Assembly: GCA_021740905.1 (NCBI GenBank)
Contig: JAIOYV010000072.1
Coordinates: forward strand, 1 to 35,950
Reading direction: 5' to 3'
Source of the DNA: Bacteroidales bacterium
Lineage (GTDB): Bacteria; Bacteroidota; Bacteroidia; Bacteroidales; M50B96
DNA length: 35,950 nucleotides
A model generated the notes under the pieces. That model saw only the letters and a program-made list of their open reading frames with translations. It had not been told where the DNA came from and ran no database searches. Below are positions 781 to 35,609 of this stretch, piece by piece (the first letter of the stretch is position 1; each line of letters begins with the position of its first letter). Made by a program: the position numbers and the translations under genes.

Positions 781-1821
781 ATGGAAGTATCCAAAAAGCA
801 ATTGCAACAGCTCCTTTCGGCTATCTCTGCCTGGCAGAAAAAAGGGATGTTGAGCGACGACAAGGCCGATGAATTGCGCCAAAGCCTGTCGTACAAAAAA
901 TTCGATTGGAAACAACTGGCCCGCTATAGTTTCTGGACAGCCCTGGCCAGTGCTTTCATTTCGCTTGCCTCGCTGATGGCCGACGATTACATAATTGCCC
1001 TAGCCGAACGCCTGATGCAAACCAGCGATTACATCTTCTCCATTTTCTTTTTTGTTTTCTCGGCGGCCTGTTATTTTTGGGCCTGGCGCATTCAAACCCG
1101 AAAACGCGAGAAACACCTTAGTGTCGAATTTATCTCTTTGGCGGCATCGCTTCTGCTGGGCGGGGCGCTGATCTATTTGTTGAAATCGTTCGATAAAGTG
1201 GGCGATTTCCCTGCCTGGGTCTTTTTGTTGTGCGCTGTTTTGTGGGGCATCATGGCCAATTTCTTTTCATCCGAAAGTACCTGGTTGCTTAGCCTGGTTT
1301 CGTTGTACGGTTGGTTTGGATTGGGCACTTATGCTATTTCTGGCGATCCCTGGTCTTTTCTTGGAATGAACTATGCCTTGCGCTTTGTCATTTTTAGTAT
1401 GCTCCTTTTTTATCTTGGCTATTTTATCCGGTTTTGGGTGAGGTTTAAATTCTATACACTAACACGCTACTTCACCTTATCTGCTTTTTTTACCGCTTTT
1501 TGGTTGCTCTCGATATTTGGGAATTACACCGATTTCGAGGTATGGGAACAAATCCGCCAGGAAAACCTGTACTATTGGGGCATCATTTTCGGCTTGGTGG
1601 CAATCGCCTTTATTATATATGGGATGAAACGCGACGACGATTTTGCACGTGCCTACGGTATTTCTTTTCTTCTGTTGAATATTTACACACGGTATTTCGA
1701 ATTCTTTTGGGAAGAATCGCACAAGGCTATTTTCTTTGCTATACTGGCCGTTTCGTTTTGGTTGATCGGACGGAAGGCGGAAAGGCTGTATAATTTGGAT
1801 TTCCGGAAGAAAGGGGGGTAA
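781..1821 (+). CDS. DUF2157-like polytopic membrane protein
   Basis: This 346-residue protein starts with a soluble helical segment of about 60 residues (MEVSKKQLQQLL, then a lysine/aspartate-rich helix). At least eight hydrophobic segments follow, such as FWTALASAFISLASLM, IFSIFFFVFSAACYFWAW and AASLLLGGALIYLL. An N-terminal soluble helix bundle plus a multi-pass membrane part is the layout of the DUF2157 family, whose function is unknown. I chose the ATG at 781. The 54 codons upstream in the same frame read through repeat-like DNA and have no family character. The gene stands alone between two decayed T9SS traces. The cytoplasmic-membrane location is inferred from the hydrophobic segments. 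Confidence 0.65.
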   Translation: MEVSKKQLQQLLSAISAWQKKGMLSDDKADELRQSLSYKKFDWKQLARYSFWTALASAFISLASLMADDYIIALAERLMQTSDYIFSIFFFVFSAACYFWAWRIQTRKREKHLSVEFISLAASLLLGGALIYLLKSFDKVGDFPAWVFLLCAVLWGIMANFFSSESTWLLSLVSLYGWFGLGTYAISGDPWSFLGMNYALRFVIFSMLLFYLGYFIRFWVRFKFYTLTRYFTLSAFFTAFWLLSIFGNYTDFEVWEQIRQENLYYWGIIFGLVAIAFIIYGMKRDDDFARAYGISFLLLNIYTRYFEFFWEESHKAIFFAILAVSFWLIGRKAERLYNLDFRKKGG

Positions 1822-1824
1822 CAT

Positions 1825-1844
1825 CACCACAATAAATTGTGGTG
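1825..1844. repeat. Short perfect inverted repeat after the DUF2157 gene
   Basis: CACCACAAT (1825-1833) and ATTGTGGTG (1836-1844) are perfect reverse complements separated by two bases, starting four bases past the stop codon. There is no T-tract, so it may aid 3' end formation but is not a classical terminator. Confidence 0.45.
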
Positions 1845-1851
1845 GTATCTC

Positions 1852-1968
1852 AAAGGTATCAATTCCAATTCCTTCATCCTCGATAAAGGAAAACTCGAAA
1901 GTGGCTGCTACATCCTAAAAGCTAGGGACACGAACGGGAATATTTACGTTGATAAATTGATAATGTAA
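1852..1968 (+). pseudogene. Remnant of a T9SS sorting domain
   Basis: Directly after the DUF2157 stop, and in the same frame, the sequence reads NSFILDKGKLESGCYILKA followed by a short strand ending VDKLIM and TAA. The LESGCYILK segment matches the L.sGiYil+ strand of T9SS type A domains, and the hydrophobic/basic end fits. There is no upstream passenger, start codon or HPNP motif. It is the last ~35 residues of a lost secreted protein. Confidence 0.5.
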
Positions 1969-2288
1969 GGAACGGAACGATAGTCACCATGAAGCGGAGA
2001 TCCCGAAAGGAATGAAAGGGCAACGAGCAGTTTTTGTGGGGGGTACACTTTAAAAGTTCACTGGGGTGCGGCAAAATCCAAGATCACTACCATCACAGCA
2101 AAGGCAAACGGGGATGTTTGAGAAATTGGACACAAAATATTATAAATAACCTGTCGTACCTACGGCACTTTGCACAATACCGGATACAAACTTCTACCAT
2201 ACTGTCATCCCTACGATATTAATTATGAATCCGACTGGTGTGGTAGTGTGGTAGGCAGTTAAGCAACAAGCAACCAGCAACCAGTCTC
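1969..2288. other. Intergenic decay region
   Basis: No gene is supported. The segment 2145-2220 (CTGTCGTACCTACGGCACTT, later CTGTCATCCCTACGATATT) resembles decayed Bacteroidota intergenic repeats. At 2262-2285 there is a simple AGCAACAAGCAACCAGCAAC run. A short stretch near 2056-2118 reads VHWGAAKSKITTITAKANGD, which faintly resembles a PKD-type beta strand pair and may belong to the same lost secreted protein as the T9SS remnant. Confidence 0.35.
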
Positions 2289-2993
2289 CTACCCAAACTG
2301 ACTGATATTTTCAAGCTTTTGCATATTTGTGATTTCAATGGCTTTGGCTTGCTCGGTGATGATCCCTTCGCTTTGAAATTCTTTTAAAACCCGGATGGCA
2401 CTGTCTTTCGACATGGCGGTCATGTCGGCAATATCCTGGCGCGAAAGCACAAGTTCGAACAAGGGCTTCCCATACACCTCTTTCGACAAGTAGAGCAAAG
2501 CATCGGCCATCCGCCCGTGCATTTGCTTTTGGGTAAGGCTCATCATTTTATCAAAAGTGAAAATGCTTTGCCTGTTGAGTGATCGAATAAAATCCATGTT
2601 AAAGTCTTTGTTTTCTTCAATCAGGGTTTTCCAATTTTCGACAGGGATAAAGCAAGCCGTGGTTTCCTTTAGGGCCGAAATAGAGTAATGATGCCGGGTG
2701 TCGGAAAATATTCCAGGCCCTCCGGCATATTCACCTTCTTTCAATATTTTTATGATGAGGTTTTTATTCTGAAAACCTTCGATGTACACTTTGGCAAGCC
2801 CTGAAGTGAGGAAAATTATGTGTGTAGCCGAGGTTCCCTGCTTGTAGATCATCTCATCAGGCTTAAAGACAACTTCAAACCGATCCTTGTTCAATACCTC
2901 TAAGTGCTTGTCACTTAACGATTTTGTAATAGGCGATTTGTTATTGCAGTCCTTGCAATCAAAACATCTATGCGATTTCAAAAATTGAGTCAT
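2289..2993 (-). CDS. Crp/Fnr-family regulator with N-terminal Cys cluster
   Basis: The 234-residue protein has an N-terminal C10-x2-C13-x2-C16 cluster, a cyclic-nucleotide-binding-type beta roll (about 30-145), and a C-terminal winged helix-turn-helix with LSRQDIADMTAMSKDSAIR as its recognition region. A fourth cysteine (C114, TTACFIP) lies about where Fnr has its central ligand Cys122. E. coli Fnr binds a [4Fe-4S] cluster through three N-terminal cysteines plus that one, so an oxygen- or NO-sensing cluster is plausible, although the spacing is tighter here. It is divergent from a cytochrome operon starting at 3203 and likely controls it and itself. A TATCTTTG -7 box lies 28-35 bases upstream of its ATG. 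Confidence 0.85.
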   Translation of the reverse strand: MTQFLKSHRCFDCKDCNNKSPITKSLSDKHLEVLNKDRFEVVFKPDEMIYKQGTSATHIIFLTSGLAKVYIEGFQNKNLIIKILKEGEYAGGPGIFSDTRHHYSISALKETTACFIPVENWKTLIEENKDFNMDFIRSLNRQSIFTFDKMMSLTQKQMHGRMADALLYLSKEVYGKPLFELVLSRQDIADMTAMSKDSAIRVLKEFQSEGIITEQAKAIEITNMQKLENISQFG

Positions 2994-3020
2994 AAGTTAA
3001 AAAATACTTTTTCCGTATTA

Positions 3021-3028
3021 CAAAGATA
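3021..3028 (-). promoter_or_regulatory. -7 box (TAnnTTTG) for the Fnr-like gene
   Basis: Read on the minus strand this is TATCTTTG, matching the Bacteroidota primary-sigma -7 consensus TAnnTTTG. It would give a leader of about 23-25 bases. Confidence 0.55.
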
Positions 3029-3050
3029 CATATTAATATGTTTACAATGA

Positions 3051-3074
3051 TATATATCGATTTACATAATGACA
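3051..3074. promoter_or_regulatory. Degenerate Fnr-type operator half-site
   Basis: TATATATCGA here is identical to one arm of the 30-bp palindromes upstream of both collagen-like cytochromes (10192-10221 and 8429-8458). The right half is poorly conserved. It lies about 48 bases upstream of the -7 box of the cytochrome operon, close to the ~52 bases seen at the two palindromes. It is in the divergent promoter region, so it could serve both directions. Confidence 0.4.
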
Positions 3075-3103
3075 TTTACCATGCATGCTAACAGAAATAT
3101 CTT

Positions 3104-3111
3104 TATTTTTG
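3104..3111 (+). promoter_or_regulatory. -7 box (TAnnTTTG) for the cytochrome operon
   Basis: TATTTTTG matches the Bacteroidota -7 consensus and lies about 90 bases before the first gene of the operon. The long leader is AT-rich with no evident structure. Confidence 0.5.
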
Positions 3112-3202
3112 TGTTTTGTAGATGGTAAGCAATATCTACATTTACAATTGTCTAAATAGTTAAATATGTAATTAATATTCTTTCTAATTAATAAATTTTA
3201 GT

Positions 3203-3856
3203 ATGATGCAAAGATCAATTATTAAAAGAGTTATCATGGTGTTCTCAGTAGCACTACTATTTACAGCGTGTGAATATGCATATATTACACCCGAGGTAAT
3301 TGAAGCAAAAAGAGACTTCAAGGAGGACATCGTCCCCATCTTTGAGAACCGTGGTTGCAGTGCAGTGGAATGTCATAAGCCATTAGGTTCGCTGGCACCC
3401 GACTTTTCTTCAGAAAACGTATACGAATCTATTCTGGGTTATGTAGATACAATAAGCCCAGAACAAAGTGCCCTTTATTTAGCGCTTACTACCGGCACCA
3501 CACACAAGGGAATGACATCTTCGGATATGCAGAATGATATTTTACAATGGATCGCGCAAGGTGCAAAGGATAAGGTTGTAATAATACCCAAGAGTTTTGC
3601 AAACGACATTATCCCTATTTTTAATCAGAAATGTAATATGGCAGGATGCCATGTTGAAGGACATTCTGCTGTAGATCTATCGCCAGCAAATGCTTATGCA
3701 AGCATAAATGCAAAGGGGCTGATTGATTTGGCAACTCCTGAAAATAGTGGGTTGTATACAATAATTCACCAAAGTGGTTCACACGACGGACGCTCAACAG
3801 CTACCCAGCAGGCTTTGATCCTTCAATGGATTACCGAAGGAGCTCTGGATAATTAA
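3203..3856 (+). CDS. Diheme-like lipoprotein cytochrome c with two CX4CH motifs
   Basis: The 217-residue protein has a lipoprotein signal (LLFTAC, lipidated C23) and two tandem homologous domains. Each contains an IVPIF/IIPIF helix, a CX4CH motif (C52-C57-H58 and C144-C149-H150) and an ILQWI helix. The domains resemble PF07635-like (planctomycete-type) cytochrome c folds, where the heme motif often carries extra residues. Domain 1 keeps a possible distal Met (THKGM, M104); the equivalent in domain 2 is HDGR, suggesting a different axial ligand. It is the first gene of a four-gene operon, 30 bases before the DUF5777 gene. An outer-membrane-facing periplasmic location is inferred. It probably shuttles electrons between the heptaheme protein and outer components. 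Confidence 0.75.
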   Translation: MMQRSIIKRVIMVFSVALLFTACEYAYITPEVIEAKRDFKEDIVPIFENRGCSAVECHKPLGSLAPDFSSENVYESILGYVDTISPEQSALYLALTTGTTHKGMTSSDMQNDILQWIAQGAKDKVVIIPKSFANDIIPIFNQKCNMAGCHVEGHSAVDLSPANAYASINAKGLIDLATPENSGLYTIIHQSGSHDGRSTATQQALILQWITEGALDN

Positions 3857-3886
3857 TTTATGGTTTCACATTAAACAATTTCAAAA

Positions 3887-4756
3887 ATGAAGAAAATGGT
3901 ATATAAGAGAATAAGTATTTTAGCAATTGGATTCCTGTTTGCCGGGATGTCTTTATTTGCCCAGGAAGATAAACAAGAGGATAAGCCGGTACGTTTTGCC
4001 TGGAATAGCGAATTGCTGATTGATAACCAAACACCCTTGATGCAAAATGAAAAGACCTGGCAATTTCATATACACCACAGGTTTGGGACATTGGAAAACG
4101 GGATCAGTGATTTGTATGGTATTTATGCCCCATCGAATATCCGGATTGGATTGAATTATGGCGTTACCAGTAAGTTGACTATTGGATTTGGCACCGAAAA
4201 GAACAACAAAATGCAAGAGCTGATGTGGAAGGTGAAATTGTTAGAGCAAACAAGATCATGGCGCATACCAATCGACCTTACCTATTTTGGGAATGTGGTG
4301 ATTGATGGCAGAGAAGAAGAAAACTTTGGTACTGACTTTACCTTTACAAACCGTTTAAGCTTCTTCAACCAGCTTATCGTATCCAGTAAATTAACCGACA
4401 AATTATCCTTGATGTGTGCAGTGGGCTATGCTCATTTTAATGCTTTAGATACTGCAAAATATGATGGTATGGCACATGACAAACTGGGGATAACTTTTGG
4501 TGGCAGGTACAATTTCCATAACGAAATGTCCTTTATTATTGAATATGATCATCCTATTGACATTTATGGCGATGAGGAAGAACCTGCAAAACCAAACCTG
4601 GGAATTGGATGGGAAATTAATACAGGTACTCACGCATTCCAGGTAACTGCTGCAAACTACAGTCATATTATCAATCAGAAAAATTTAATATTTAATCGAA
4701 ATGACATGACAAATGGTGGATGGCTAATTGGATTCAATATTGTAGTTCGATTCTAA
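3887..4756 (+). CDS. DUF5777-family outer-membrane beta-barrel protein
   Basis: The 289-residue protein has a signal peptide ending MSLFAQ. Amphipathic beta strands alternate with short turns, with LNYGVTSKLTIGFGTEKN, LIVSSKLTDKLSLMCAVGYA and GGRYNFHNEMSFIIEYD as examples, and the last residue is Phe (IVVRF), as barrel assembly signals prefer. This matches the DUF5777 beta-barrel family, which I recall mostly beside cytochrome c genes. The lumen content and ligand are unknown. Sitting between a lipoprotein cytochrome and a multiheme cytochrome, it could house or position a heme protein in the outer membrane. That is inference from context. It ends 132 bases before the next gene. Confidence 0.75.
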   Translation: MKKMVYKRISILAIGFLFAGMSLFAQEDKQEDKPVRFAWNSELLIDNQTPLMQNEKTWQFHIHHRFGTLENGISDLYGIYAPSNIRIGLNYGVTSKLTIGFGTEKNNKMQELMWKVKLLEQTRSWRIPIDLTYFGNVVIDGREEENFGTDFTFTNRLSFFNQLIVSSKLTDKLSLMCAVGYAHFNALDTAKYDGMAHDKLGITFGGRYNFHNEMSFIIEYDHPIDIYGDEEEPAKPNLGIGWEINTGTHAFQVTAANYSHIINQKNLIFNRNDMTNGGWLIGFNIVVRF

Positions 4757-10891: not shown

Positions 10892-12544
<1,653 letters not shown>

Positions 12545-12562
12545 TTATGTTCGACAATAGGA

Positions 12563-12841
12563 TTAAATAATTGCAAGAATATCAGACTGGTTCATGATTA
12601 AATAATCATTTCCTTCGTGAGAAATCTCAGTGCCTGAATATTTTCCGTACATAACTTTGTCACCCACTTTTACTTCCATTGGTTCTTCTTCAGTTCCTTT
12701 TCCTACTGCAACTACTTTTCCTTGTTGCGGTTTTTCTTTCGCAGAATCAGGTATAATTATACCAGAGGCTGTTTTTTTCTCTGCTTCAATCGCTTCAATT
12801 AGTACCCGTGTACCGAGCGGCTTAATTTGTACTTTCGACAT
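12563..12841 (-). CDS. groES: Co-chaperonin GroES (Cpn10)
   Basis: The 92-residue protein is the normal size. It forms the heptameric lid on GroEL. The [10 protein letters not shown] opening, the mobile-loop [13 protein letters not shown] and the [14 protein letters not shown] segment are family hallmarks. No CIRCE element (TTAGCACTC-N9-GAGTGCTAA) is present in the 449 bases upstream, so HrcA control is not evident. It is the first gene of the groESL pair. Confidence 0.97.
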
Positions 12842-13229
12842 ATTATTTAAATTTTAAATTAAACATTTTTATTTGCGCCCTGCTTTGTCATAATGTATGC
12901 CAAAGCTTCTTTGTCGCTGTGGGTTAGAAGACAAAAAGGGCAACAATACATTCAAGCTCCTATCTTTCAGGAAGATAATTAAATATGATAAATATTGAGA
13001 GGACTGACATGAAAACTAATTTGCTGACATCATTGCACTTCACTAGCTCCTATTACCTGGGTGTAAGTGCCATTATTTCAGTGTGTAATATATTCCCTTA
13101 TTCGGACAAAAATGAATTTCAGCAATAGTGACAGCCTGACATTCTTTCGATAGTGGGAGTACGGCTCCAATTTTCTGCTTAACCCGATTTGGTGGGGCTT
13201 AGACTTTTGCCCTGGAATTGGCTCCTAGC
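12842..13229. other. Intergenic upstream of groES
   Basis: No gene or CIRCE operator is visible. The 25 bases before the groES start are AT-rich (AAATTTAAAATTT). The rest is unstructured apart from minor repeats such as CTGACAT. Confidence 0.3.
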
Positions 13230-24589: not shown

Positions 24590-27500
24590 ATGAAGAAGTA
24601 CTTAGCCCTTGCAAACTGCGTGAAGTTCGCACTTATCCTAATCGTTTCGGCATTGATCCCTTTTAATATGTTTGCTGAATGGGTCCCCATCAACCCCAAC
24701 CAATCGGTGCAAAGCCCACCCAAAGTGACCATCCTCAGCGACGATATGAACAGTACCGTGCTGAAAATCGAGATCAACGGGTTCAACCTAAAAAATCTCC
24801 AGGTGGGTGGAAAAACCTACCAGACGGTTGATTTATTATCGGATATCTTTTCTACAGAAGCTGGTTATCCTGAGTTGCCATACATTTCAAAAGTTTTGGC
24901 AGTTCCCGATCAGGCAAGCGTTTCGGTCGAAATAATTGAAACAGGCGATGTCGAAACATACAGTAATATTTACCTGCCACCAGCCAGGGTAAGCTGGTAC
25001 GAAAGCCAGGGCGAGACTCCATACACAGAAAACCCGGAGGCCTACCAGTCGATGGACATCTATCCCGCTAATAATGCTGCATTGGACCCGCCAGCCATAT
25101 TTCGCGATTTTCGTATTGCAAGGGTATCGTTATTTCCGGTTCGTTATTTGGCTTTCAAAAAGGAATTGCAGGTAGCTTCGTCCATCACCATCCGTGTAAA
25201 TTATGGCAGTGGAGTGGCGATTAATCCGAAGACCACCGCACGAAAGGCCATTACACCTTCCTTTGGAAAATTGTACCAAGGCTTCATTTTTAATTATCTG
25301 AACGTGTTAAAAAGCTTATACAATGGGGTGGAAGACGGGCAGGAATTGATGTTGTGCATCATGCCCGACGAATTTGTAGCCAGTTTTCAGGTGTATGCCG
25401 ATTGGAAACGCGAAAGTGGCACCAATGTGCACATAACCAAATTCACCGACATAAACGCAAACGCCAGCAACCCCGATATAATAAAAAATCACATTGCCGA
25501 TGCGTATAACAATTGGCCCATTCCGCCAAGCTATGTGCTCATTGTGGGCGACAACAATATCTTTCCAAAGAAGGTCGTAAACTACGATTATTCATTTCCC
25601 AACGAAGATTATTTTGTTGAGATTGAAGGGAACGATTTTTTCCCCGAAATGATGATCGGGCGATTCACCAATCAGGGCGATTACCGGATGCAGGTGATGA
25701 TAAACAAATTCATGAAGTACGAAAAAGACCCGTATGTAACCAATACCGACTGGTTTAAAAAAGGGATTTGTTGTTCGAATAATGAATATGAATCGCAAGT
25801 AGAAACCAAACGCTATGCTGCCGAAATGATGACCTCTGGTGGTTTTACCGTCGATACCCTGATGAGTGATGGCTCTGGCTGGGGTGGAACTCCCTGTTCG
25901 ATGGATTTAAACGATGTTACAAGTGCCATTGATGAGGGGAGAAGTTGGCTGAATTATCGGGGCGAAGGCTGGAGCGACGGCTGGCATGCCAACTGTTATT
26001 TTTTCGATGCCACCGATGTTACGGGTTTGAACAATGGAGAGAAACTCACATTTGTAACCAGTATTGGTTGTGGCGTGGCAATGTTCTCCGCAAACGGTGG
26101 TAATTGTTTTGGCGAGGAATGGATACAACTCGGCACACTGACCAATTTTAGAGGCGCAGTCGCATTTGTTGGCCCAACGTCAAACACACACACTACCTAC
26201 AACAACAAGATAGATAAAGGGATTTATTCGGGAATGTTCCAGGAAGGCATGGAAACACCAGGTACAGCACTACTGCGAGGGAAGCTCTATATGTACAATG
26301 TATTTGGAAACGATCCCTGGGTTGAATATCATTACAGGGTCTATTGTGTGTTGGGCGATCCAAGCATTCATATCTGGAAAGATATTCCACAGACCGTAGC
26401 TGTGAGCCATCCTGCAACCATTGCCATTGGCTATAACCAGGTGGAAGTTACCGTAACTTTTGGAACTTCGGGGGCAGCTGTGGCCAATGCACAGGTTTGC
26501 CTGTCTGGTGACGCCGTTTTTATGACCGGTACTACCGATTCTCTAGGCAAAGTGTTTGTTGGCATTACCCCTCTTGTTGAGGATACCTTGACAATTACGG
26601 TCCGGGGCGGCAATGTTATCCCATACCAGGGAACAATAGCAGTAGTGCAGACTGCCGAGCACGTTGGGCCCAACACTACTCCTGTGATAGTAGATATTGA
26701 TGGCAACCAGAATGGCACGGCAAACCCGAACGAAAACTGCAACATTACCTTTTCGCTGATGAATTGGGGCCTGCAAACTGCCAGCAATGTTCAGGCAACA
26801 CTTACTTCTTCCGACCCCAATGTACAGGTAGTGACCACAAGCCCATTGAGTTTTGGAAATCTGGCTGCCGGTGGTTCTTTTACAGGAAGCCCATTTCAAT
26901 ATTTCATACTGCCAACTTGCCCCATAGGACACGTAATTATTCTCCATTTGCACGTAACCAGCAATACCAGCTCATGGGATTACCAATATTCCGATGTGGT
27001 AAATGGATGCGACTTGGTCTACCTCGATTATGTGGTGAACGACGACAGCATTGCCTTTTCGAATTACCGGATGGATCCGGGTGAGACAGTAAAACTATTC
27101 CTGAAGATTGAAAATATTGGAGAGGATGTTGCCCCAAACACAAAGGGAATCCTCTACTGCAACGATCCCTATATTACCATCGAAGACTCCATGGGTACCT
27201 TTGGATCGTTGGGGGTGGGAGCTTTTGCATTGAGCCAAAATGATTATTTCAAAGTCAGTGTCGATGCCAGCTGCCCGGTTGGGTACCTTGCAGAATATAC
27301 TTTGAAACTATACACCGAAGGTGGGCCCTATCCTTATGAAATTATTCGCACTCTCAGCATTCCGGTAGGCCTTGCAGGGGCCAACGATTACACAGGCCCT
27401 GACCTATATGGATATTATGCCTATTCGAGCGATGATGTGATTTTTGAACAGGCACCGGTTTACGATTGGATGGAAATAAATACGATTGGCACCGAACTGA

Positions 27501-28363
27501 ACATGCCAAGCAGCGATTACACCCAGACTATTACCATCCCCTTTACTTTCAAATATTACAGCATGGATTACACCGAACTTCGGGTAAGTACCGATGGTTG
27601 GATTGCCTTTGGAAGTGGATCGCAAACCGCCTACGAAAACACCCCCTTGCCAAACAACGATAATGTGGACGCTATGGCAGCAGTTTTTTGGGACGATCTC
27701 CACGATAACAACTGGGAAACCGGAAAGCTTTTTTATTACAACGATGTTGCCAACCACCGTCTTATTGTTCAATGGGACAGCATAGCGCATTACAACGATC
27801 AGGACGACCCTGACAAGGAAGTTTTCCAGGCCATTCTTTTGGACCCGGCCTATTATCTTACCCCAACCGGCGATGGTGAGCTTATCTTCCAATACAGTAG
27901 AATTATCGTACGGACAAACTGTACGGTTGGAATTGAGAACAAATTGGAAAATATTGGTCTGCAATACGTGTACAATAATAGCTACGACATTACCGCCTCG
28001 GTACTAAAAAATGATTTTGCGATCAAGTTTACTACCGTACCGCCTTTCTCTACTTTGTCCGATGAAGGCTCGAAAATGGAGGTTCCCGGCTATAGTTTGG
28101 GACAAAATTACCCCAACCCCTTTAGCCCAAACACCTGGATCAGTTATTCGATCCCAAAAGAAGCGAAAGTGGAACTCCATATATTTGACATTAGCGGGCA
28201 GCTGATTCGCACGTTGCAAAACCAGCAACAGGCAGCCGGAAATTATACGCTGATGTGGAATGGATTAAACAACGATGGCGACAAGGTCAGCTCAGGCGTA
28301 TTTTTTTATCGCCTCCAAACAGATGAATTTGTAGCAACAAAAAAATTATTTATGCTTAAATAG
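24590..28363 (+). CDS. Secreted gingipain-type (C25) protein with T9SS tail
   Basis: The 1257-residue protein starts with a signal peptide (MKKYLALANCVKFALILI...). A C25-type propeptide follows (to ~220), then a C25 caspase-like domain (~245-590), an Ig-like C25_C domain (~600-690), two CARDB/APHP-like repeats, an unrecognised beta-rich domain (~950-1150) and a FlgD/T9SS type A sorting domain (~1167-1257, QNYPNPFSP...SSGVFFYRL, ending KKLFMLK). The nucleophile-region Cys (C494 in SIGCGVAMF) and NCFGE (C506) align with RgpB. At the RgpB His211 position (YTGHG), however, this protein has YRGEG, that is E459. H466 follows seven residues later. It is exported through T9SS. Whether it is an active protease is open. 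Start 24590 is preferred over longer frames that run through the repeat. Confidence 0.85.
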   Translation: MKKYLALANCVKFALILIVSALIPFNMFAEWVPINPNQSVQSPPKVTILSDDMNSTVLKIEINGFNLKNLQVGGKTYQTVDLLSDIFSTEAGYPELPYISKVLAVPDQASVSVEIIETGDVETYSNIYLPPARVSWYESQGETPYTENPEAYQSMDIYPANNAALDPPAIFRDFRIARVSLFPVRYLAFKKELQVASSITIRVNYGSGVAINPKTTARKAITPSFGKLYQGFIFNYLNVLKSLYNGVEDGQELMLCIMPDEFVASFQVYADWKRESGTNVHITKFTDINANASNPDIIKNHIADAYNNWPIPPSYVLIVGDNNIFPKKVVNYDYSFPNEDYFVEIEGNDFFPEMMIGRFTNQGDYRMQVMINKFMKYEKDPYVTNTDWFKKGICCSNNEYESQVETKRYAAEMMTSGGFTVDTLMSDGSGWGGTPCSMDLNDVTSAIDEGRSWLNYRGEGWSDGWHANCYFFDATDVTGLNNGEKLTFVTSIGCGVAMFSANGGNCFGEEWIQLGTLTNFRGAVAFVGPTSNTHTTYNNKIDKGIYSGMFQEGMETPGTALLRGKLYMYNVFGNDPWVEYHYRVYCVLGDPSIHIWKDIPQTVAVSHPATIAIGYNQVEVTVTFGTSGAAVANAQVCLSGDAVFMTGTTDSLGKVFVGITPLVEDTLTITVRGGNVIPYQGTIAVVQTAEHVGPNTTPVIVDIDGNQNGTANPNENCNITFSLMNWGLQTASNVQATLTSSDPNVQVVTTSPLSFGNLAAGGSFTGSPFQYFILPTCPIGHVIILHLHVTSNTSSWDYQYSDVVNGCDLVYLDYVVNDDSIAFSNYRMDPGETVKLFLKIENIGEDVAPNTKGILYCNDPYITIEDSMGTFGSLGVGAFALSQNDYFKVSVDASCPVGYLAEYTLKLYTEGGPYPYEIIRTLSIPVGLAGANDYTGPDLYGYYAYSSDDVIFEQAPVYDWMEINTIGTELNMPSSDYTQTITIPFTFKYYSMDYTELRVSTDGWIAFGSGSQTAYENTPLPNNDNVDAMAAVFWDDLHDNNWETGKLFYYNDVANHRLIVQWDSIAHYNDQDDPDKEVFQAILLDPAYYLTPTGDGELIFQYSRIIVRTNCTVGIENKLENIGLQYVYNNSYDITASVLKNDFAIKFTTVPPFSTLSDEGSKMEVPGYSLGQNYPNPFSPNTWISYSIPKEAKVELHIFDISGQLIRTLQNQQQAAGNYTLMWNGLNNDGDKVSSGVFFYRLQTDEFVATKKLFMLK

Positions 28364-28512: not shown

Positions 28513-29700
28513 ATGTACATTTTTTACATTTTACTGGTAATGACAATTGCGGTGGCAATATTTGGTTTGATTGAATACAGGCTACATCAAAAGCGGATCT
28601 ATTCCATCCCCATCCGGATCCACATTAACGGGACCCGGGGCAAATCGAGTGTGACCCGTTTGGTGGGGGCAGGTTTGCGCGAAGGAGGCATTTCATCTAT
28701 TACCAAAGTGACCGGCACTTTTCCCCGGTTGATATTGGAAGATGGCACCGAAACCCATATTTATCGAAAGTCGGGGGCAAATATCCTGGAGCAATTGTCT
28801 ATTGTAAAATTTGCCGCAAAGCGAAAAGCAAAAGCCCTTGTGATGGAGTGCATGGCCCTGCAACCCCAATACCAGACCATCACCGAAAATCAAATGATAC
28901 ACGCCAACATAGGGGTAATGACCAATGTGCGCATGGACCATGTGGATGTGATGGGGCACACACTTCCGGAAATTGCCGAAACCCTGGGCCGTACAATTCC
29001 TAAAAATGCGCATCTCTTTTCTTCTGAAAATATGATCCCTGATCAACTTAAAAAGATCGCAGACAAACGAAACACCGAATGTCATTTTATTGATCTGAAC
29101 ATAGTAAGTGTAGAGGAAATGAAAGGCTTTAGCTATATCGAGCATCGCGAAAATGTGGCCCTCGCCCTGGCTATTTGCGAACAAGTAAAAGTAGATCGGG
29201 AAACCGCACTGCGAGGAATGTACAAGGCCATCCCCGATGCCGGGGCATTGATGTGTTTTCGTGTAAATGCTTTTCAGAAAGAACTATTTTTCTACAATGC
29301 CTTTGCCGCCAACGACCCCGATTCAACCCTAATGATTTGGAACAAGATTAAGGAGGAGATCGGTTTCGAAGGCATCCGTATCGTACTCCTAAATACGCGC
29401 CAGGACCGACTCGATCGTGCCCGTCAGTTGGCCGAAATGTCGGCAAGTAAATTAGGTGCTGAGTTGGACTATCTCATGCTGATTGGGCAGTCCACCGAAG
29501 TGGTAGAGAACATGGCCACCGGTTATGGATTGCCATCACAGAAAATTATAAACCTGGGTTACACAACCCCTCAAAATGTATTTGAAAAAGCATTAGCTTT
29601 AACCGATACCAAGTCGTCGATAGTTGCCATTGGCAATATGGGTGGCATGGGGGCAGAAACATCGGAGTTTTTTGAACATAGAAGTTCTGTAAAATTATGA
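28513..29700 (+). CDS. pgsB: Poly-gamma-glutamate synthase ATP-dependent ligase PgsB/CapB
   Basis: The 395-residue protein has an N-terminal membrane segment (about 2-20) and a Mur-ligase-type P-loop HINGTRGKSSVTRL (38-50). It continues with the CapB hallmarks KVTGTFPRLI, VMECMALQPQYQ and MTNVRMDHVDVMG. It forms amide bonds between side-chain-linked residues using ATP. PgsB and PgsC form the minimal synthase for poly-gamma-glutamate at the inner membrane. Its TGA overlaps the ATG of pgsC (ATGA), the classic coupled arrangement. The substrate (Glu or another amino acid) cannot be told from the sequence. Confidence 0.93.
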   Translation: MYIFYILLVMTIAVAIFGLIEYRLHQKRIYSIPIRIHINGTRGKSSVTRLVGAGLREGGISSITKVTGTFPRLILEDGTETHIYRKSGANILEQLSIVKFAAKRKAKALVMECMALQPQYQTITENQMIHANIGVMTNVRMDHVDVMGHTLPEIAETLGRTIPKNAHLFSSENMIPDQLKKIADKRNTECHFIDLNIVSVEEMKGFSYIEHRENVALALAICEQVKVDRETALRGMYKAIPDAGALMCFRVNAFQKELFFYNAFAANDPDSTLMIWNKIKEEIGFEGIRIVLLNTRQDRLDRARQLAEMSASKLGAELDYLMLIGQSTEVVENMATGYGLPSQKIINLGYTTPQNVFEKALALTDTKSSIVAIGNMGGMGAETSEFFEHRSSVKL

Positions 29701-30149
29701 TTGAATTAGCAATTACATTAGGCCTATTTTTCAGTTTGCTTTCCTACGAAGTTTTCGGGTTGGCTGCCGGGGGAATAGTTGTGCCGGGCTATTTGGCCCT
29801 GCAACTCTCGCACCCCGAACGCCTGGCCGGCACCATGGTGGTAAGCTTTGTGACCTACTTAATCATTAAAGCCCTGGGCAAGTACACCTTTTTATACGGT
29901 CGCCGCCAGATGGTGTTCAGTTTGTTGGTTGGTTGTTTGTTGGCCTATTTTTCGCGCTACTTTTTAATGTTTGATGTAGCGGGTAGTTCAGTCGAGCTTC
30001 AGGCTGTTGGATGGGCAATCCCAGGTTTGATTGCCCACTGGTTTGGCAAGCAGGGAGTCTATAAAACATTAAGTGTATTGTTTGTGGCAGCAGTGCTTGT
30101 TCGCCTGATCGTAATATTAATTTTCAATGGGGCCTTGTTGCCAGAGTAA
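29697..30149 (+). CDS. pgsC: Poly-gamma-glutamate synthase membrane subunit PgsC/CapC
   Basis: The 150-residue protein has four or five membrane helices and the GLAAGGIVVPGYLAL motif typical of CapC, plus FLYGRRQMVFSLLVGC. It is the membrane partner of PgsB. The start overlaps the pgsB stop by four bases, so the two are translationally coupled. It is followed by a 377-base gap carrying a structured repeat instead of the next gene. Confidence 0.92.
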   Translation: MIELAITLGLFFSLLSYEVFGLAAGGIVVPGYLALQLSHPERLAGTMVVSFVTYLIIKALGKYTFLYGRRQMVFSLLVGCLLAYFSRYFLMFDVAGSSVELQAVGWAIPGLIAHWFGKQGVYKTLSVLFVAAVLVRLIVILIFNGALLPE

Positions 30150-30243
30150 TGAAATGAAATAATGCCCCAGATTTACAGATTAAAAATTATACAGAATGAA
30201 AAATATTTAGCAAAGAATGAATCTAATCCGAAAAGTAGATTAT

Positions 30244-30433
30244 TTATCCCTAAGGGATAAAATTTGAATAACCGCCGGTGAAACCGGCGGAGAATGGTGG
30301 AGTATCGTTCTCAACCCTGATAAGGGTTGAACTTTTAGTCTATTCATATTCAGCCCCTATCAGGGCTGTAAGCTGATACTGCCTCTTCCGCCAGTTTCAC
30401 TGGCGGTTATTCAAATTAAGTCCTTTCAGGACT
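30244..30433. repeat. Mirror-arranged pair of REP-like elements
   Basis: Six small hairpins lie in two inverted, mutually homologous halves. These are TTATCCC/GGGATAA (30244-30260), CCGCCGG/CCGGCGG (30272-30290), TCAACCCT/AGGGTTGA (30311-30330), CAGCCC/GGGCTG (30351-30368), CCGCCAG/CTGGCGG (30388-30406) and AGTCCT/AGGACT (30419-30433). The right half read in reverse repeats the order of the left half, including TTTGAATAACCGCC, with compensating changes in the stems. This resembles the REP elements mobilised by RAYT (Y1) transposases. No RAYT gene is in the window. It separates pgsBC from pgsW. Confidence 0.75.
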
Positions 30434-30526
30434 ATCCTGTTAATTTTAGATATTTCGGATTAGGCTCAAGAATTAGAAAGTTGAATCTGTGGCATAGCTT
30501 CATAGAACTTAAGGAAATAAATTAGA

Positions 30527-31684
30527 ATGTATAAATTTAGAGCAAAATCGAATATTGTTTTAACAGTCCTGTCTGTGCTTTCTTTGTTGGCGTTTATTGC
30601 TGTGGAGAATGGAAAGGTGGAGGTGAAGCAAAAATGGTATGCCGAAAAACTTGAAGCGGCCGAACTATCTCAATTGGCAGCCAATACACTGAAAGAATAC
30701 CGGCTTGGCAAAGGTGTTTTTATTGATGCCATTAACGACCCCAACAACACGGCCTTGATTGGCCAGGAATACACACTGGTCACTACCGACCGGGGTTATA
30801 TCGAGGCAAAACTGTCTTCCACAAATCCCAACTTTGCTGCCGTAATTGTCCAGCTTTTAAAGGACGCCGGATTAAAAGAAAAGGACAATGTAGCTGTGGC
30901 TATGACAGGTTCGTTTCCGGGCTTGAATATTTCCATCATGGCTGCCTTGGAAGCCCTCGACCTAAAACCCATTGTCATCACTTCGGTGGGTGCTTCTAAT
31001 TTTGGGGCAAACGATCCCTACTTTACCTGGCTCGACATGGAAAATGTATTGTACGAATCGAATGTGTTCCACACTAAATCGGTGGCTGCATCGATGGGTG
31101 GCGGGGCCGATATTGGCCGGGGCCTAAGTCCCGAAGGGCGGGAATTGATTGTGAAGGCCATTGAACGAAATGATGTTGAATTGATCCAGGAAGATCACCT
31201 CGAAAACAGCATTGCCAAAAGAATGAAAATCTACCAAAAAGAAAGTGGACAAACACCCATAAAGGCATTTATTAATGTGGGTGGTGGAATTGCCAGTTTG
31301 GGAAATACGGTGAATGGGAAAATAATCCCTGCCGGGCTAACCGAATTATTGCCACAAAGCAATTTCCCGGTGCGAGGTGTGATGATCCAGATGGGACAGA
31401 ACGAAATCCCAATCATCCATCTTCTAAACATAAATCAATTATTGACAAAATATGGCTTGCCCTTTAGCCCTGTACCTTTGCCAGAACCTGGCGAAGGCGA
31501 AATTTTTGTGCAGGAGAAATACAGTGTTGTAGTTACTTCTGTTTCAGTATTGATTTTACTCATCGTAATCATCTTTGTGTATGTGAGCGAACGCAAACAA
31601 CATCAACTGGGGACTGAAATTGTTAGCGGGGCAAATAATCCAAAACCAAAAGAAGAAGAGAATGTGGATATACTATCTTTGTAA
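30527..31684 (+). CDS. pgsW: Poly-gamma-glutamate system protein PgsW
   Basis: The 385-residue protein has an N-terminal membrane helix (about 10-26). A long periplasmic domain follows with MTGSFPGLNISIMAALEAL, ITSVGASNFGANDP, SMGGGADIGRGLSPEGREL and VGGGIASLGNTV. A second membrane helix (~333-351) leads to a short cytoplasmic tail. This matches the poly-gamma-glutamate system protein family (TIGR04332), which travels with PgsB and PgsC. Its biochemical role is not established. It is in the same orientation as pgsBC across the REP-like gap and is probably part of the same locus. A -7 box at 31674-31681 lies at its 3' end and would serve the next gene. Confidence 0.85.
   Translation: MYKFRAKSNIVLTVLSVLSLLAFIAVENGKVEVKQKWYAEKLEAAELSQLAANTLKEYRLGKGVFIDAINDPNNTALIGQEYTLVTTDRGYIEAKLSSTNPNFAAVIVQLLKDAGLKEKDNVAVAMTGSFPGLNISIMAALEALDLKPIVITSVGASNFGANDPYFTWLDMENVLYESNVFHTKSVAASMGGGADIGRGLSPEGRELIVKAIERNDVELIQEDHLENSIAKRMKIYQKESGQTPIKAFINVGGGIASLGNTVNGKIIPAGLTELLPQSNFPVRGVMIQMGQNEIPIIHLLNINQLLTKYGLPFSPVPLPEPGEGEIFVQEKYSVVVTSVSVLILLIVIIFVYVSERKQHQLGTEIVSGANNPKPKEEENVDILSL
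31674..31681 (+). promoter_or_regulatory. -7 box (TAnnTTTG) inside the 3' end of pgsW
   Basis: TATCTTTG overlaps the last codons of pgsW and would start transcription close to the ATG at 31695 or 31707. It could give the gene at 31695 separate control. Confidence 0.45.
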
Positions 31685-31694
31685 ATAGTGCTTA

Positions 31695-32189
31695 ATGTTG
31701 AAAGGAATGAGAGACATACTATTTGCGATATTGACAACTTTGATTTTTAGTCCAATATTTGGGCAGGAAATAGATTACGGCGGAGTATATTCATATGGAA
31801 CTTCGCCTGATAGTGGACGTGTCGGAATTATTTATATACATCCGAACTCTGATAGCACACTTTTGTTTTATTTGGAGTTAAATAGAGGTGCCCCTTCATA
31901 TAATACTGGGGCAATTATTGGTCAAATGAATATTTACAGCCCGGGTGATGCTGATTTTACTATGATTAAAGAATCTGATTTTGTTAACTGTAGTATGAAC
32001 TTCTGGTTCACAAACGACTCACTATACATTAGGACAAATTATGAAGCAGATGATTGTGGGTATGGATATGGTGTATACTCTCATGGTGACTTTAAACTTA
32101 TAAATCCAGAAACACCAGAATTCTTTATTGATAGAAGTGGAGAAAAAATATATTTTAAATCTTTGGAATGGACCAAATGGTGGGACTGA
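31695..32189 (+). CDS. Small secreted hypothetical protein
   Basis: The 164-residue protein has a signal peptide ending SPIFGQ. The mature chain, about 140 residues, is beta-strand-like and rich in Gly, Tyr and Asp (DYGGVYSYGTSPDSG, IIYIHPNSDSTLLFYLEL, CSMNFWFTNDSLYIR). Two cysteines in the mature part may form a disulfide. I do not recognise a family. Base composition is more AT-rich than the pgs genes around it, and it has its own -7 box, so it may be a later arrival. The start could also be the ATG at 31707. Its location is the periplasm or beyond. Confidence 0.55.
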   Translation: MLKGMRDILFAILTTLIFSPIFGQEIDYGGVYSYGTSPDSGRVGIIYIHPNSDSTLLFYLELNRGAPSYNTGAIIGQMNIYSPGDADFTMIKESDFVNCSMNFWFTNDSLYIRTNYEADDCGYGYGVYSHGDFKLINPETPEFFIDRSGEKIYFKSLEWTKWWD

Positions 32190-32308
32190 TAATAATTAAA
32201 CAACAAAGTGGAAGCCAATAGTGAAAAACAACTCTACCTAGCCATCCAAAATACGATATGATAACATTAACAACTACTATATAAACGAACAACCAAACTA
32301 TGGCCATT

Positions 32309-33223
32309 ATGAAAAACACTCTATTGCTTTTGCTGATAGCCCTTTTGTCCTTTTCGGGCACAATGGCCCAATCGAGCAAGAAATCGCGCAGTTTGAAACC
32401 GACCAATTATCAAAAGAGGGTCACAACAATTGTCGCGGAAAAATCGAGGAATTATTACTCGCTCGACAATGAGAAGGCTTCAGTTATCACACTTCAGGGG
32501 CCAGGGAAACTTCGGGTACTGACCCGGGGGCGATTTGAACCAAAACAAGGTGATAAAATCGAGTATGAGATTCTGTACACAATTGATGGCGGGGAACAAA
32601 TGCAAGTAAAAATGAGCAAGGTGGTTCGCTCTAAAATTGCAAAATATAAGAACACGGCACTTGGCGTACCTGCCGACAGCAAGGATTTTGAGATAGACCT
32701 GGGACGGGGTTATCACAATATCGAATTCAAACTAACTAAAAATGACATTCCTGTTGCTGTGCGCTATGTGTTTACGCCCACCAAGGCAAAGAAACAAGAC
32801 TGGATTGCATTTTCACCGCTGCAACCGTCCGAGCCTGTCGATTTAATTTCCCGTGAGGAAGCCGTTGGTTATTATCGTTTTTCGACAGACAAACCCATGA
32901 AGGTGGAAGTAAACGGGCCTACCGAATTGCGGATATTGACCCGGATCGAATATCAATACCAGATGAAAGGAAGGATTGATTATCGTTTGCAGGTAAAAGA
33001 AAATGGCAAGGCTATAAACACCTACCAGTTAAGTTCGGTTCGCTCGGAAATTGCGGTGTACAAAACCGACAAAGAGCTGGTTCCAGGCAAAGCCCGCGAA
33101 TTTGTAATTATTGTCCCAAAGGGAAGGCACACCTACGAAATTGTTCCTTTAGACAAAGATAAAAATAAAGTATTAGGCCGCATTTTGTTGCCTAAGAAAG
33201 CAGTAAAACTCAAAAATGATTAA
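32309..33223 (+). CDS. Secreted protein with two tandem homologous domains
   Basis: The 304-residue protein has a signal peptide ending GTMAQ. Two internally homologous units of about 100 residues, offset by ~139 residues, follow. YY49/YY188, GPGKLRVLTR (64-73) / GPTELRILTR (203-212), VRSKIAKYK (106-114) / VRSEIAVYK (244-252), and a Gly-(Arg/Lys)-Gly..H/Y..(I/V)E motif near 131 and 271 repeat in order. Mature pI looks basic. I do not recognise the domain. It sits between the small secreted gene and the barrel gene in the pgs locus. A periplasmic scaffold that binds an anionic polymer would fit the basic charge, but this is inference. Start 32309 is chosen over an upstream ATG at 32300. Confidence 0.7.
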   Translation: MKNTLLLLLIALLSFSGTMAQSSKKSRSLKPTNYQKRVTTIVAEKSRNYYSLDNEKASVITLQGPGKLRVLTRGRFEPKQGDKIEYEILYTIDGGEQMQVKMSKVVRSKIAKYKNTALGVPADSKDFEIDLGRGYHNIEFKLTKNDIPVAVRYVFTPTKAKKQDWIAFSPLQPSEPVDLISREEAVGYYRFSTDKPMKVEVNGPTELRILTRIEYQYQMKGRIDYRLQVKENGKAINTYQLSSVRSEIAVYKTDKELVPGKAREFVIIVPKGRHTYEIVPLDKDKNKVLGRILLPKKAVKLKND

Positions 33224-33269
33224 TGATTATTTATTAATGATAAATGAATTAAAGTGCCAAATTAAACCT

Positions 33270-33374
33270 TAAAGCCTCTGTGCAACTCTGTGTTTTCTTT
33301 GTGAAACTCTGTGTAATAACTTCTTGGCTATACCACAGAGTTTCACAGAGGTCCCACAGAGTTTCACAGAGAAA
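33270..33374. repeat. CTCTGTG/CACAGAG repeat block
   Basis: CTCTGTG units (five, 33270-33330) face CACAGAG units (four, 33335-33372) in opposite orientation, with CACAGAGTTTCACAGAG repeated. It can fold as a hairpin. It lies in the 5' flank of the barrel gene and accounts for the odd N-terminal extension of the longer frame (RVSQRSHRVSQR). This repeat type is common in bacterial genomes. Confidence 0.7.
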
Positions 33375-33384
33375 AAAACGAAAT

Positions 33385-34533
33385 ATGAAAAAACGAAAAT
33401 ATTTACACCATCCCTCCCTTTTTAGAGTATGCCTCCTCATCCTGATGATGTTTAGCCTACTCTCGAACGGGGATGCCCTTGCGCAAAAAAAGAGCAAGAA
33501 GAAAAAGAAAACCACCGATTGGGATATCGAGTTCAGCCTTGGTTCGAGCTACGATGACAATATCCTGAAATACTCCGACAAATACCTCGACCGGTTTATG
33601 AACCACGAGGATGAAGGGCGTTTCCACATCGATACCTACGACGACATTATCCTCCAGCCTGCCATTGGGGCAACATACTCCTTCCGGCTTTTTGGCAAGC
33701 AAAAATCGCAATTGGATGCCAACTTCAAACGCAGTTTTTACATGGTGAACGATATCAAAAGCTGGACTTATGCCAGTTTCGGATTTCGGCATTATCTAAA
33801 CAAGGATCTAAGTTTTAAGCTTTCGTACAGCCACATCCCCTACTTTTACATCCGCCATTTCCGCGACGACGACTGGGTCGATGTTTTCGGCTACACCCAG
33901 GAAACCTTTAGGCCAATGGCATTCTCGAAAGACAGTTACGCCTTTTGGATTCAGAATACTTTCTTCGAAAACACCCGGGTAAAATTTTCATTGTCCTACA
34001 TGAAATACTTTTACAACTCCAGTTTCACCGAGTACGATTGCGACAATATGGAATACGAGCTAAAAATTTACCAACCCATTCATAAAAAAGTAAAATTGGT
34101 GTTGGGCTATCAATTTACAGTTTCCGATGCACAAGCCTACGACGAAAGTTTCGAGACCAAAGAAAGCTCCAACGACTCGGACGGTTCGTTCGAGGAGGAT
34201 CTATTTTCTGTGGGGTTCGATTGGAACATGCCCCGGATTTTCGATCGCTACAATACACTGGATGTAGAGGCAATGGTGATGAAACGGTATTTTTCATCAA
34301 CTCATTATCTGGAAGAAGACCCTACCCATGCGGGTCGGGTAGATGATAATTTTCGTCTGTATATTACCTACGACATAAAATTGAATAAACAATTGAAGCT
34401 CTCTGTTTTCTACAATTGGCTTTACCGAGAATCGGACACCAAAGCAGAAGCGAACAAAGAATATTTAAAAAATGAAAAGGCATATCGTCAGAATCAGCTA
34501 GGGTTTAAGTTGGCCTACGATATAAGTTTATAA
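33385..34533 (+). CDS. Probable outer-membrane beta-barrel, pgs-locus accessory
   Basis: The 382-residue protein has a signal peptide (MKKRKYLHHPSLFRVCLLIL..., cleaved at ALAQ), a Lys-rich stretch (KKSKKKKKTTD) and then alternating polar/hydrophobic strands typical of a barrel (IEFSLGSSYDDNIL, YSFRLFGKQKSQLDAN, LSFKLSYSHIPYFYIR, VKLVLGYQFTVSDA, KLSVFYNWLYRES, LGFKLAYDISL). Aromatic girdle residues recur at strand ends. I do not recognise a family. Within a polymer-synthesis locus, it is the best candidate for an outer-membrane channel or receptor. Start 33385 is chosen because the upstream 35 codons translate a repeat. Confidence 0.6.
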   Translation: MKKRKYLHHPSLFRVCLLILMMFSLLSNGDALAQKKSKKKKKTTDWDIEFSLGSSYDDNILKYSDKYLDRFMNHEDEGRFHIDTYDDIILQPAIGATYSFRLFGKQKSQLDANFKRSFYMVNDIKSWTYASFGFRHYLNKDLSFKLSYSHIPYFYIRHFRDDDWVDVFGYTQETFRPMAFSKDSYAFWIQNTFFENTRVKFSLSYMKYFYNSSFTEYDCDNMEYELKIYQPIHKKVKLVLGYQFTVSDAQAYDESFETKESSNDSDGSFEEDLFSVGFDWNMPRIFDRYNTLDVEAMVMKRYFSSTHYLEEDPTHAGRVDDNFRLYITYDIKLNKQLKLSVFYNWLYRESDTKAEANKEYLKNEKAYRQNQLGFKLAYDISL

Positions 34534-34595
34534 ATAAGGGATAATCTCCCTATTACTTTCAAAATAGAAATATAAAAAAAATAAAAACATAGAAA

Positions 34596-35609
34596 ATGAA
34601 AACCCTTAAATCGTTTGTTTACTTGTTGTTTGCCGCTTTCGTTGTAGTAAGTTGCGGAAAACCAACCGACCCCGAATCTATAAATAATGATGGAAGCACG
34701 GGAGGCTATAGAATAATCGGAAAGCTTTCAACACCAGGTTACCCGCAAGATGTTGTATTGGATAGCAACTATTGTTATGTAACACAAGGTGAAGGTGGAT
34801 TATTGATTGCCGATATCACCGATCGGGAGGATCCGAAGATGGCTTCATTAATAAGCCAGGGTGTAAGGGGGTATTCCAATAAAATTATCCAGAAAGACAG
34901 TATCGTTTATATCTCGGCGGGTTCGTTGGGAGTAACTGCGGTGATAATCTCCGACCCGGAAAACCCTATTGCAGTTCAATCGAACATTGACCTAAAACCT
35001 GCCCGCGATTTTCATATCATGGGGGACTATATGTTTACCTCGATAAGCGAACAGGGAGTGCAATTGGCAGAACTTAGTTATCTGCCCCACCCCGATCCAC
35101 GGAAAGTAATAAAGACATCGGGCTTTGCACGTGGCATGACCTCCACCGCCGACAGTAGTTATTTGTTGGTGGCCTGTGGCGAAATGGGATTGTCCATCTA
35201 CAATATTTCCGATTTTCAGGATGGCTATGGAGATTACCCCCTCGCCGGGTGGGGCGATACAGAGGGCTACGCAGAGGACGTTGAAATATTGCAAGATCAG
35301 GATATTGCCTTCATGGCCTGCGGTACAGCCGGGTTGCAAATCGTCGATTTTTCCGATTCCTCCAATGTCCATGTTGTGGGAGCTTATGATGGCAGTGGTT
35401 ACGCCAAAGAACTTATCTATGAAAACGGCCTGATTTATATGACCGCCGAATCGGGTGGTCTACAGGTGATCAACGTAAGTGATGTAACGGAACCTTTCCT
35501 GGTAGGCTCGGTGAACACCCAATATGCGCTGGGCATCGACAAGGATGATAAGTACATTTATATTGCTGATGAGGACGAGGGGTTGATTATTATTGCGATT
35601 CCGGATTGA
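34596..35609 (+). CDS. LVIVD-repeat beta-propeller lipoprotein
   Basis: The 337-residue protein has a lipoprotein signal (FVVVSC, lipidated C20). About seven blades follow, with the LVIVD-type repeat: hydrophobic Tyr/Gly strand, then (L/I)xIxDxxD. Examples are GGLLIADITDREDP, GVTAVIISDPENP, GLSIYNISD, GLQIVDFSDSS and GGLQVINVSDV. Blade number suggests a beta-propeller exposed on the cell surface. Its partners are unknown. It is the last gene of the pgs-locus block, 62 bases after the barrel gene. A surface anchor or polymer-binding role is inferred only from position. Confidence 0.8.
   Translation: MKTLKSFVYLLFAAFVVVSCGKPTDPESINNDGSTGGYRIIGKLSTPGYPQDVVLDSNYCYVTQGEGGLLIADITDREDPKMASLISQGVRGYSNKIIQKDSIVYISAGSLGVTAVIISDPENPIAVQSNIDLKPARDFHIMGDYMFTSISEQGVQLAELSYLPHPDPRKVIKTSGFARGMTSTADSSYLLVACGEMGLSIYNISDFQDGYGDYPLAGWGDTEGYAEDVEILQDQDIAFMACGTAGLQIVDFSDSSNVHVVGAYDGSGYAKELIYENGLIYMTAESGGLQVINVSDVTEPFLVGSVNTQYALGIDKDDKYIYIADEDEGLIIIAIPD

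Follow-up and report, generated by a model that had tools for sequence, protein, structure and literature searches.

How a polymer made at the inner membrane could reach the surface of a bacterium with two membranes is the question raised by a gene cluster in contig JAIOYV010000072.1 (assembly GCA_021740905.1) from a Bacteroidales bacterium. The whole stretch analyzed, referred to here as the window, is 35,950 nucleotides (nt). The cluster has pgsB, pgsC and pgsW followed by four envelope genes, all on the plus strand (Table 1), as described in an initial annotation of the window; gene calls and matches to curated models agree on this. The second and third of the four genes, here termed dup and barrel, encode a secreted protein with tandem domains and a predicted outer-membrane beta-barrel. 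We consider it probable that the cluster specifies machinery spanning the cell envelope, which produces an amide-linked anionic polymer (most likely poly-gamma-glutamate) and delivers it to the surface. Because the synthase is paired with a predicted binding protein and a predicted channel, the polymer would probably be both made and carried across both membranes. The basis is the gene identities and order, the co-occurrence of dup and barrel with pgsW and an observed fusion of the two, together with predicted folds; from these we infer which polymer is made, in which direction it is transported and what each part does.

In the genome sample searched, dup and barrel occur only beside pgsW. This independent sample consists of 395 genomes drawn across the phylum, which were searched with profiles for PgsW (TIGR04332), dup and barrel. 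TIGR04332 matches 14 genomes, one of them through a broken partial hit below the cut-off. dup and barrel are each found in seven genomes, the identical seven, which include that of the window, and every copy is beside pgsW; neither is found in the 381 genomes without pgsW. The dup and barrel profiles were themselves derived from pgsW-identified loci, and scoring was restricted to the best four to five preliminary candidates in each genome, so that the search could have missed distant homologues located away from pgs genes. The six further genomes with the module all have the order pgsB-pgsC-pgsW-dup-barrel. Four of them (L080, L081, L083 and L085) continue with the propeller gene, which in L085 lies in two frames, and L082 and L084 do not (L numbers denote pgs loci and G numbers genomes of the phylum sample; G055 belongs to the window's order). 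The initial annotation had considered that these families might occur mostly without pgsBC. This does not hold for dup and barrel, but the propeller is generic. Its profile matches 18 of 34 chosen genomes (14 with pgsW and 20 without), including 10 of the 20 without pgsW, and the propeller is therefore not specific by itself; all matches above 200 bits are within the locus.

A second comparison comprised 72 pgsBCW loci, i.e., 69 from a PgsW-profile scan of genome contigs plus the window, L008 and L009. Genes were called by a simple longest-open-reading-frame (ORF) script and taxonomic groups were assigned by hand, with L029 (labeled Chlorobiota) counted under Bacteroidota and L027 (Bacterium BMS3Abin03) under Ignavibacteriota. 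L007 and L010 duplicate L014 and L071 and are excluded from the counts. No pgsW ORF was called in L041, L044 and L049, and the barrel label of L044 (an 882-amino-acid ORF) is also excluded. dup is next to pgsW in 32 of the 72 loci, with one gene between them in the window, and is fused in L065. By group, dup is next to pgsW in 21 of 26 loci of Bacteroidota and in 4 of 5 of Ignavibacteriota/Melioribacter, where the remaining locus breaks off within pgsW. In WOR-3/TA06/Stahlbacteria the count is 4 of 6, with the fused L065 as a further case and the last locus again broken off within pgsW. Fermentibacteria contribute their only locus, Eisenbacteria one of two, and an unplaced genome its single locus. 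In 24 of the 32 loci barrel comes after dup, and in L065 the two are fused; three of the remaining eight are contig ends (L012, L018 and L040). The propeller gene comes after barrel in 20 of these 24 loci, of which two are truncated at contig ends; L019 and L023 stop too soon to show it, and L027 and L036 are true misses. The order dup-barrel-propeller behind pgsW is seen in Bacteroidota, Ignavibacteriota, WOR-3, Fermentibacteria and Eisenbacteria. None of the three genes is present in the five Firmicutes pgsBCW loci, an absence counted in favor of carriage to the surface.

Of the four families expected from the initial annotation to recur beside pgsBC, dup, barrel and the propeller do so in the same order and the small secreted protein does not. 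The sole occurrence of the small protein among 60 relatives is in the window's own genome, and the other loci contain no match to it; for this reason it is placed outside the system, rejected as a component and judged to be a local insertion.

A fusion of dup and barrel is found in the WOR-3 locus L065, where a single 588-amino-acid protein after pgsW combines the two. The locus profile hidden Markov models were built iteratively and include L065, and the fusion claim therefore rests on dup and barrel profiles that exclude it. With these, residues 114–245 match dup (hhalign 95.9%, E 5.5e-9) and residues 277–582 match barrel (96.9%, E 1.7e-10).

Pfam gives no family above cut-off for dup, for barrel or for the small protein. 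The barrel gene was taken to start at the ATG at 33385, whereas the ORF list has it open with a GTG at 33280; the gap before the gene (33276–33371) contains cacagag or its reverse complement seven times. The AlphaFold model has 14 strands (predicted local distance difference test score, pLDDT, 86.2; predicted template modeling score, pTM, 0.78), in accord with the barrel named in the initial annotation. Against solved structures, both the barrel protein and PgsW have sequence matches only at E 0.49 or worse. At the fold level the best matches of the barrel are CymA (Z 25.0, 3.8 Å over 290 residues) and OmpG (Z 21.3), with about 10–13% identity. Lower but still clear fold matches are those to two polysaccharide exporters, PgaA (Z 15.8) and BcsC (Z 14.6). 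Inward-facing strand positions average 19.3 Lys/Arg compared with 12.8 Asp/Glu, values for which there is no control barrel. Lys/Arg exceed Asp/Glu in 20 of 22 rows, with sides assigned by hydropathy. Such a modeled Lys/Arg-rich lumen would suit a polyanion, and the barrel is proposed to be an exit channel on the basis of its predicted fold.

dup has a signal peptide and two homologous halves (hhalign 99.7%, E 3.7e-26, 26% identity), and the duplicated-domain secreted protein of the initial annotation is thus borne out. Its model (pLDDT 90.9) shows tandem jelly-roll domains, which match CBM35 with modest Z values of 9.7 (first) and 9.0 (second). Tandem CBM51 and CBM22 pairs rank high in the Foldseek list, where a BcsB-BcsC fusion is at rank 36 (E 6.4e-4) and BcsB at rank 43 (E 7.4e-4); BcsB is absent among the 50 VIA-align matches listed. 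There is no solved relative by sequence. Equivalent positions of the two halves, picked by hand from conserved columns, are kept in most of the 29 aligned rows: Tyr52/Tyr191 in 29 and 29, Arg76/Arg215 in 29 and 28, Ser111/Ser249 in 23 and 27, and Pro124/Pro262 in 26 and 28. The proposal from these models is that dup may serve as a periplasmic polymer-binding adaptor.

The same folds bear on a different explanation, in which dup and barrel import gamma-glutamyl oligomers or recycle the polymer, so that the locus would be a turnover and not an export system. CymA and OmpG are uptake porins, CBM-like folds often bind their ligands for degradation, a peptidase-family gene adjoins the locus, and a gamma-glutamyltranspeptidase (GGT) gene is near the locus in 2 of the 7 module genomes of the phylum sample (G231 and G314). 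Turnover is nevertheless unlikely, since dup and barrel directly follow the synthase genes, no importer is among the gene families recurring at their loci, and a second type of locus, which lacks dup and barrel, has the more turnover-like partners.

This second pgsBCW type is found in Clostridium, Aminicenantes, Acidobacteria, Bipolaricaulota and five Bacteroidota loci. Its partners are DUF6305, a DctM-like membrane protein (below the Pfam cut-off) and an AspA-like protein, with C69 peptidases or a protein that is GGT-like by eye in several loci. The five Bacteroidota loci without dup (L009, L071, L072, L074 and L077) carry these partners; L045, L046, L050 and L070 are also of this type. It may be a separate gamma-glutamyl turnover or transport system. 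In the PgsW tree all 33 dup-bearing rows, including L065, are inside one 40-row branch (96/91), and two of its seven other rows (L034 and L043) are contig ends. The dup label needs five changes on the tree, so that a single origin of the dup association is not established. None of the 15 second-type rows is in the dup branch, although L071 adjoins it. PgsBCW was thus joined with different sets of partners.

PgsB and PgsC exceed the curated NCBIfam equivalog cut-offs for poly-gamma-glutamate. PgsB has a single N-terminal hydrophobic segment by hydropathy and an NGTRGKS motif that is invariant in 4 of 4 aligned rows. PgsB homology leaves the monomer unfixed, and the window's protein is about 25–35% identical to second-type PgsB. 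There is accordingly a small chance that the polymer is another amide-linked chain, made of a different amino acid or a gamma-glutamyl copolymer, and exported alike. The equivalog matches argue against this, as does the GGT gene near the locus in G231 and G314, which is counted in favor of an exported polymer that is most likely poly-gamma-glutamate. The window's own genome has one GGT gene, on another contig. The name PgsW follows the initial annotation. The protein has a domain flanked by hydrophobic segments at residues 6–24 and 330–348, and this domain is presumed to be periplasmic.

The initial annotation noted the lack of PgsA/CapA, and this extends to the whole genome: PF09587 (PGA_cap/CapA) has no match in it (97% complete), while 7 of 14 control genomes match. 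A capA gene located elsewhere, which had been raised as an alternative source of export, is thus not found in this genome. However, 4 of the 7 genomes carrying the dup/barrel module have a CapA-family gene somewhere. Absence of CapA therefore does not define the system and was rejected as its hallmark. A CapA-domain protein is near the cluster in G114 and G310, and the G310 copy has a type IX secretion system (T9SS) tail. Near the module in L083 (positions 908–3928) is a product with a CapA domain, a PKD domain and a T9SS sorting tail, which from its tail is judged to be a secreted CapA relative. CapsuleFinder classes CapA as accessory, according to the available text of PMC5542703.

Several points weigh against an exported polymer. 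A porin-like fold does not prove export, particularly as the best matches are uptake porins. In 2 of the 22 rows (L032 and L038) the lumen lacks a net positive charge, and a conserved loop of 29 residues (58–86), which joins strands 1 and 2 and includes a short helix, might block or narrow the lumen. The second Bacteroidota locus type has other partners, and PgsBCW need not imply surface export. We know of no chemistry on this polymer in the listed organisms. dup and barrel are absent from all 26 pgsBCW loci of other phyla (Aminicenantes, Planctomycetes, Polyangia, Nitrospirae, Acidobacteria and others), of which two have no called pgsW ORF and four end less than 500 bases after pgsW. The initial annotation reasoned that a two-membrane bacterium needs a path and that the following genes may be it. 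Three of these genes do recur, but since pgsBCW loci of other phyla lack dup and barrel, they would be one path and not a universal one; a path common to every two-membrane pgsBCW bacterium was rejected.

Lastly, five Bacteroidota loci have dup without this barrel (L008, L028, L030, L031 and L033; L030 ends 1.4 kb after pgsW). They form one branch of the PgsW tree. dup is thus more widespread than barrel, which would fit outer-membrane proteins that anchor the polymer or hold the synthase complex while the chain crosses by another route. This is improbable, more so than turnover or a different chain, as barrel in the genome sample is always together with dup beside pgsW, the two are fused once, and the barrel resembles open porins. 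Three of the five loci share another family of 272–282 amino acids with 35–50% identity (L008:12360–13208, L028:12031–12849 and L031:8558–9382), which lies upstream of pgsB in L008; one member matches DUF2490 below cut-off.

Directly upstream of pgsB is a C25 (gingipain-family) gene, a conserved neighbor that was not in the initial annotation. Its ORF opens at 24398 and the signal peptide begins at the ATG at 24590. The product matches PF01364 (197 bits), PF08126 (73 bits) and the sorting domain PF18962 (27.9 bits, cut-off 27). This domain, together with SprA in the same genome (TIGR04189, 2695 bits), is as expected of T9SS cargo. The gene family is present in 21 loci. Counting only loci with at least 600 bases before pgsB (L014, L018 and L022 are truncated there by the start of the contig), the C25 gene closely precedes pgsB in the window and, among 16 other non-flavobacterial Bacteroidota/Ignavibacteriota loci, in 15. 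One gene separates the two in L026, and L034, with 607 bases before pgsB, has no gene there. In the WOR-3 loci L042 and L058 the C25 gene is after the propeller, and it was not found in the L008, L028, L031 and L033 loci. In G231 and G314 a T9SS-tailed Vps10-like protein adjoins pgsB instead, with the GGT gene beyond.

The C25 protein aligns with gingipain RgpB (4ief, 83.6 bits), with which it shares a propeptide, C25 domain and T9SS-type tail. It differs in having Glu523 at the catalytic His position; the catalytic Cys is kept as Cys558 (1321-amino-acid ORF numbering, positions from the RgpB alignment). The His/Cys pair of an active C25 peptidase is therefore not present. Among 19 readable pgs-linked members from Bacteroidota and Ignavibacteriota (15 from loci of the window's kind with C25 upstream and four from the phylum sample), 18 have Glu at the His position and one has Gln, and the Cys is conserved throughout. 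In members from WOR-3, Fermentibacteria, Eisenbacteria and L036, the residue at the His position is His, Gly or Ile. By analogy to the T9SS sortase PorU and to CapD, one guess is that this protein anchors or trims the polymer.

The lipoprotein Cys20 of the propeller is invariant in 17 of 17 aligned rows, and the LVIVD match is in keeping with the propeller lipoprotein of the initial annotation. Many loci have, beside the propeller, genes for an acyltransferase of the HGSNAT type and for a family of about 415 amino acids (each in 11 loci), e.g., L011:10822–11916 and 11933–13180. They are on the opposite strand in L025 and L032, and the window's contig stops short of the position where they would sit. 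The palindromic element between pgsC and pgsW has inverted arms of 45 nt (82%); the genome holds two more long copies and shorter fragments.

Table 1. Features of the pgs locus and its neighbors (positions in the window)
Feature	Position	Strand	Basis
C25 (gingipain-family) secreted protein	24590–28363	+	propeptide and T9SS-type C-terminal tail
pgsB, Mur-ligase-type amide ligase	28513–29700	+	TIGR04012, 433.8 bits (cut-off 222.7)
pgsC, integral membrane partner of PgsB	29697–30149	+	TIGR04011, 116.4 bits (cut-off 96.45); PF14102 CapC, 113 bits (cut-off 27)
dispersed palindromic element in pgsC/pgsW gap, outside the system	30218–30468	no strand	inverted arms
pgsW	30527–31684	+	TIGR04332, 343.5 bits (cut-off 100); hydropathy
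small secreted protein, judged an insertion	31695–32189	+	found in own genome only
dup, signal peptide and two tandem jelly-roll domains (predicted)	32300–33223	+	AlphaFold, hhalign
barrel, predicted 14-strand outer-membrane beta-barrel	33385–34533	+	AlphaFold, fold matches
LVIVD beta-propeller lipoprotein	34596–35609	+	PF08309, 55.6 bits (cut-off 20.2)

Among known systems, Bacillus PgsBCA/CapBCA is similar in that PgsB and PgsC match the curated poly-gamma-glutamate models, but here PgsW comes in place of PgsA/CapA and is followed by dup, barrel and the propeller. Francisella capBCA is also a three-gene locus in a two-membrane host. In the available text of PMC5362203 the product of its capA is entered as hypothetical, under the name "poly-gamma-glutamate system protein", the description also carried by TIGR04332; in that of PMC4688374 the capsule role of the three genes is questioned. 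In the openly licensed PMC literature searched, as far as its text was available, the dup and barrel families are neither named nor described, and no explanation was found of how poly-gamma-glutamate crosses the outer membrane of two-membrane bacteria.

The Bcs, Pga and Alg secretion systems resemble the locus in having an inner-membrane synthase, periplasmic binding domains and a single outer-membrane barrel, which is here present by prediction, and the window's barrel matches PgaA and BcsC at the fold level. The synthase differs, being a Mur-ligase-type amide ligase and not a glycosyltransferase. The barrel is predicted to have 14 strands, compared with 16–18 in AlgE, PgaA and BcsC, and has no solved relative by sequence. 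No tetratricopeptide repeat (TPR) family is found in a Pfam scan of the eight window-cluster proteins. The CymA/OmpG likeness is one of monomeric-porin fold, with low identity and an uptake role as the differences.

In a working model, PgsB and PgsC would polymerize the chain at the inner membrane and PgsW would receive or guide it in its presumed periplasmic domain. dup, which has Tyr, Arg, Ser and Pro conserved at equivalent places in both halves, may bind the chain or bridge to the outer membrane, and the 14-strand barrel would let it out. The propeller lipoprotein and the T9SS-type C25 protein might work on the outside of the cell, where they would perhaps anchor or trim the chain. The chances are about even that this is a dedicated trans-envelope polyamide secretion machine of PgsBC, PgsW, a tandem jelly-roll guide, a 14-strand exit barrel and a surface C25-fold attacher or trimmer with an altered active site, which would work in the manner of cellulose, poly-N-acetylglucosamine (PNAG) and alginate export with different components.

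The locus thus has two protein families specific to the PgsW neighborhood in the sample, one natural fusion and one predicted channel. If the proposed export is correct, the principle of synthase-dependent export would extend from sugars to a polyamide, and candidate producers would be found among Bacteroidota, Ignavibacteriota and WOR-3.

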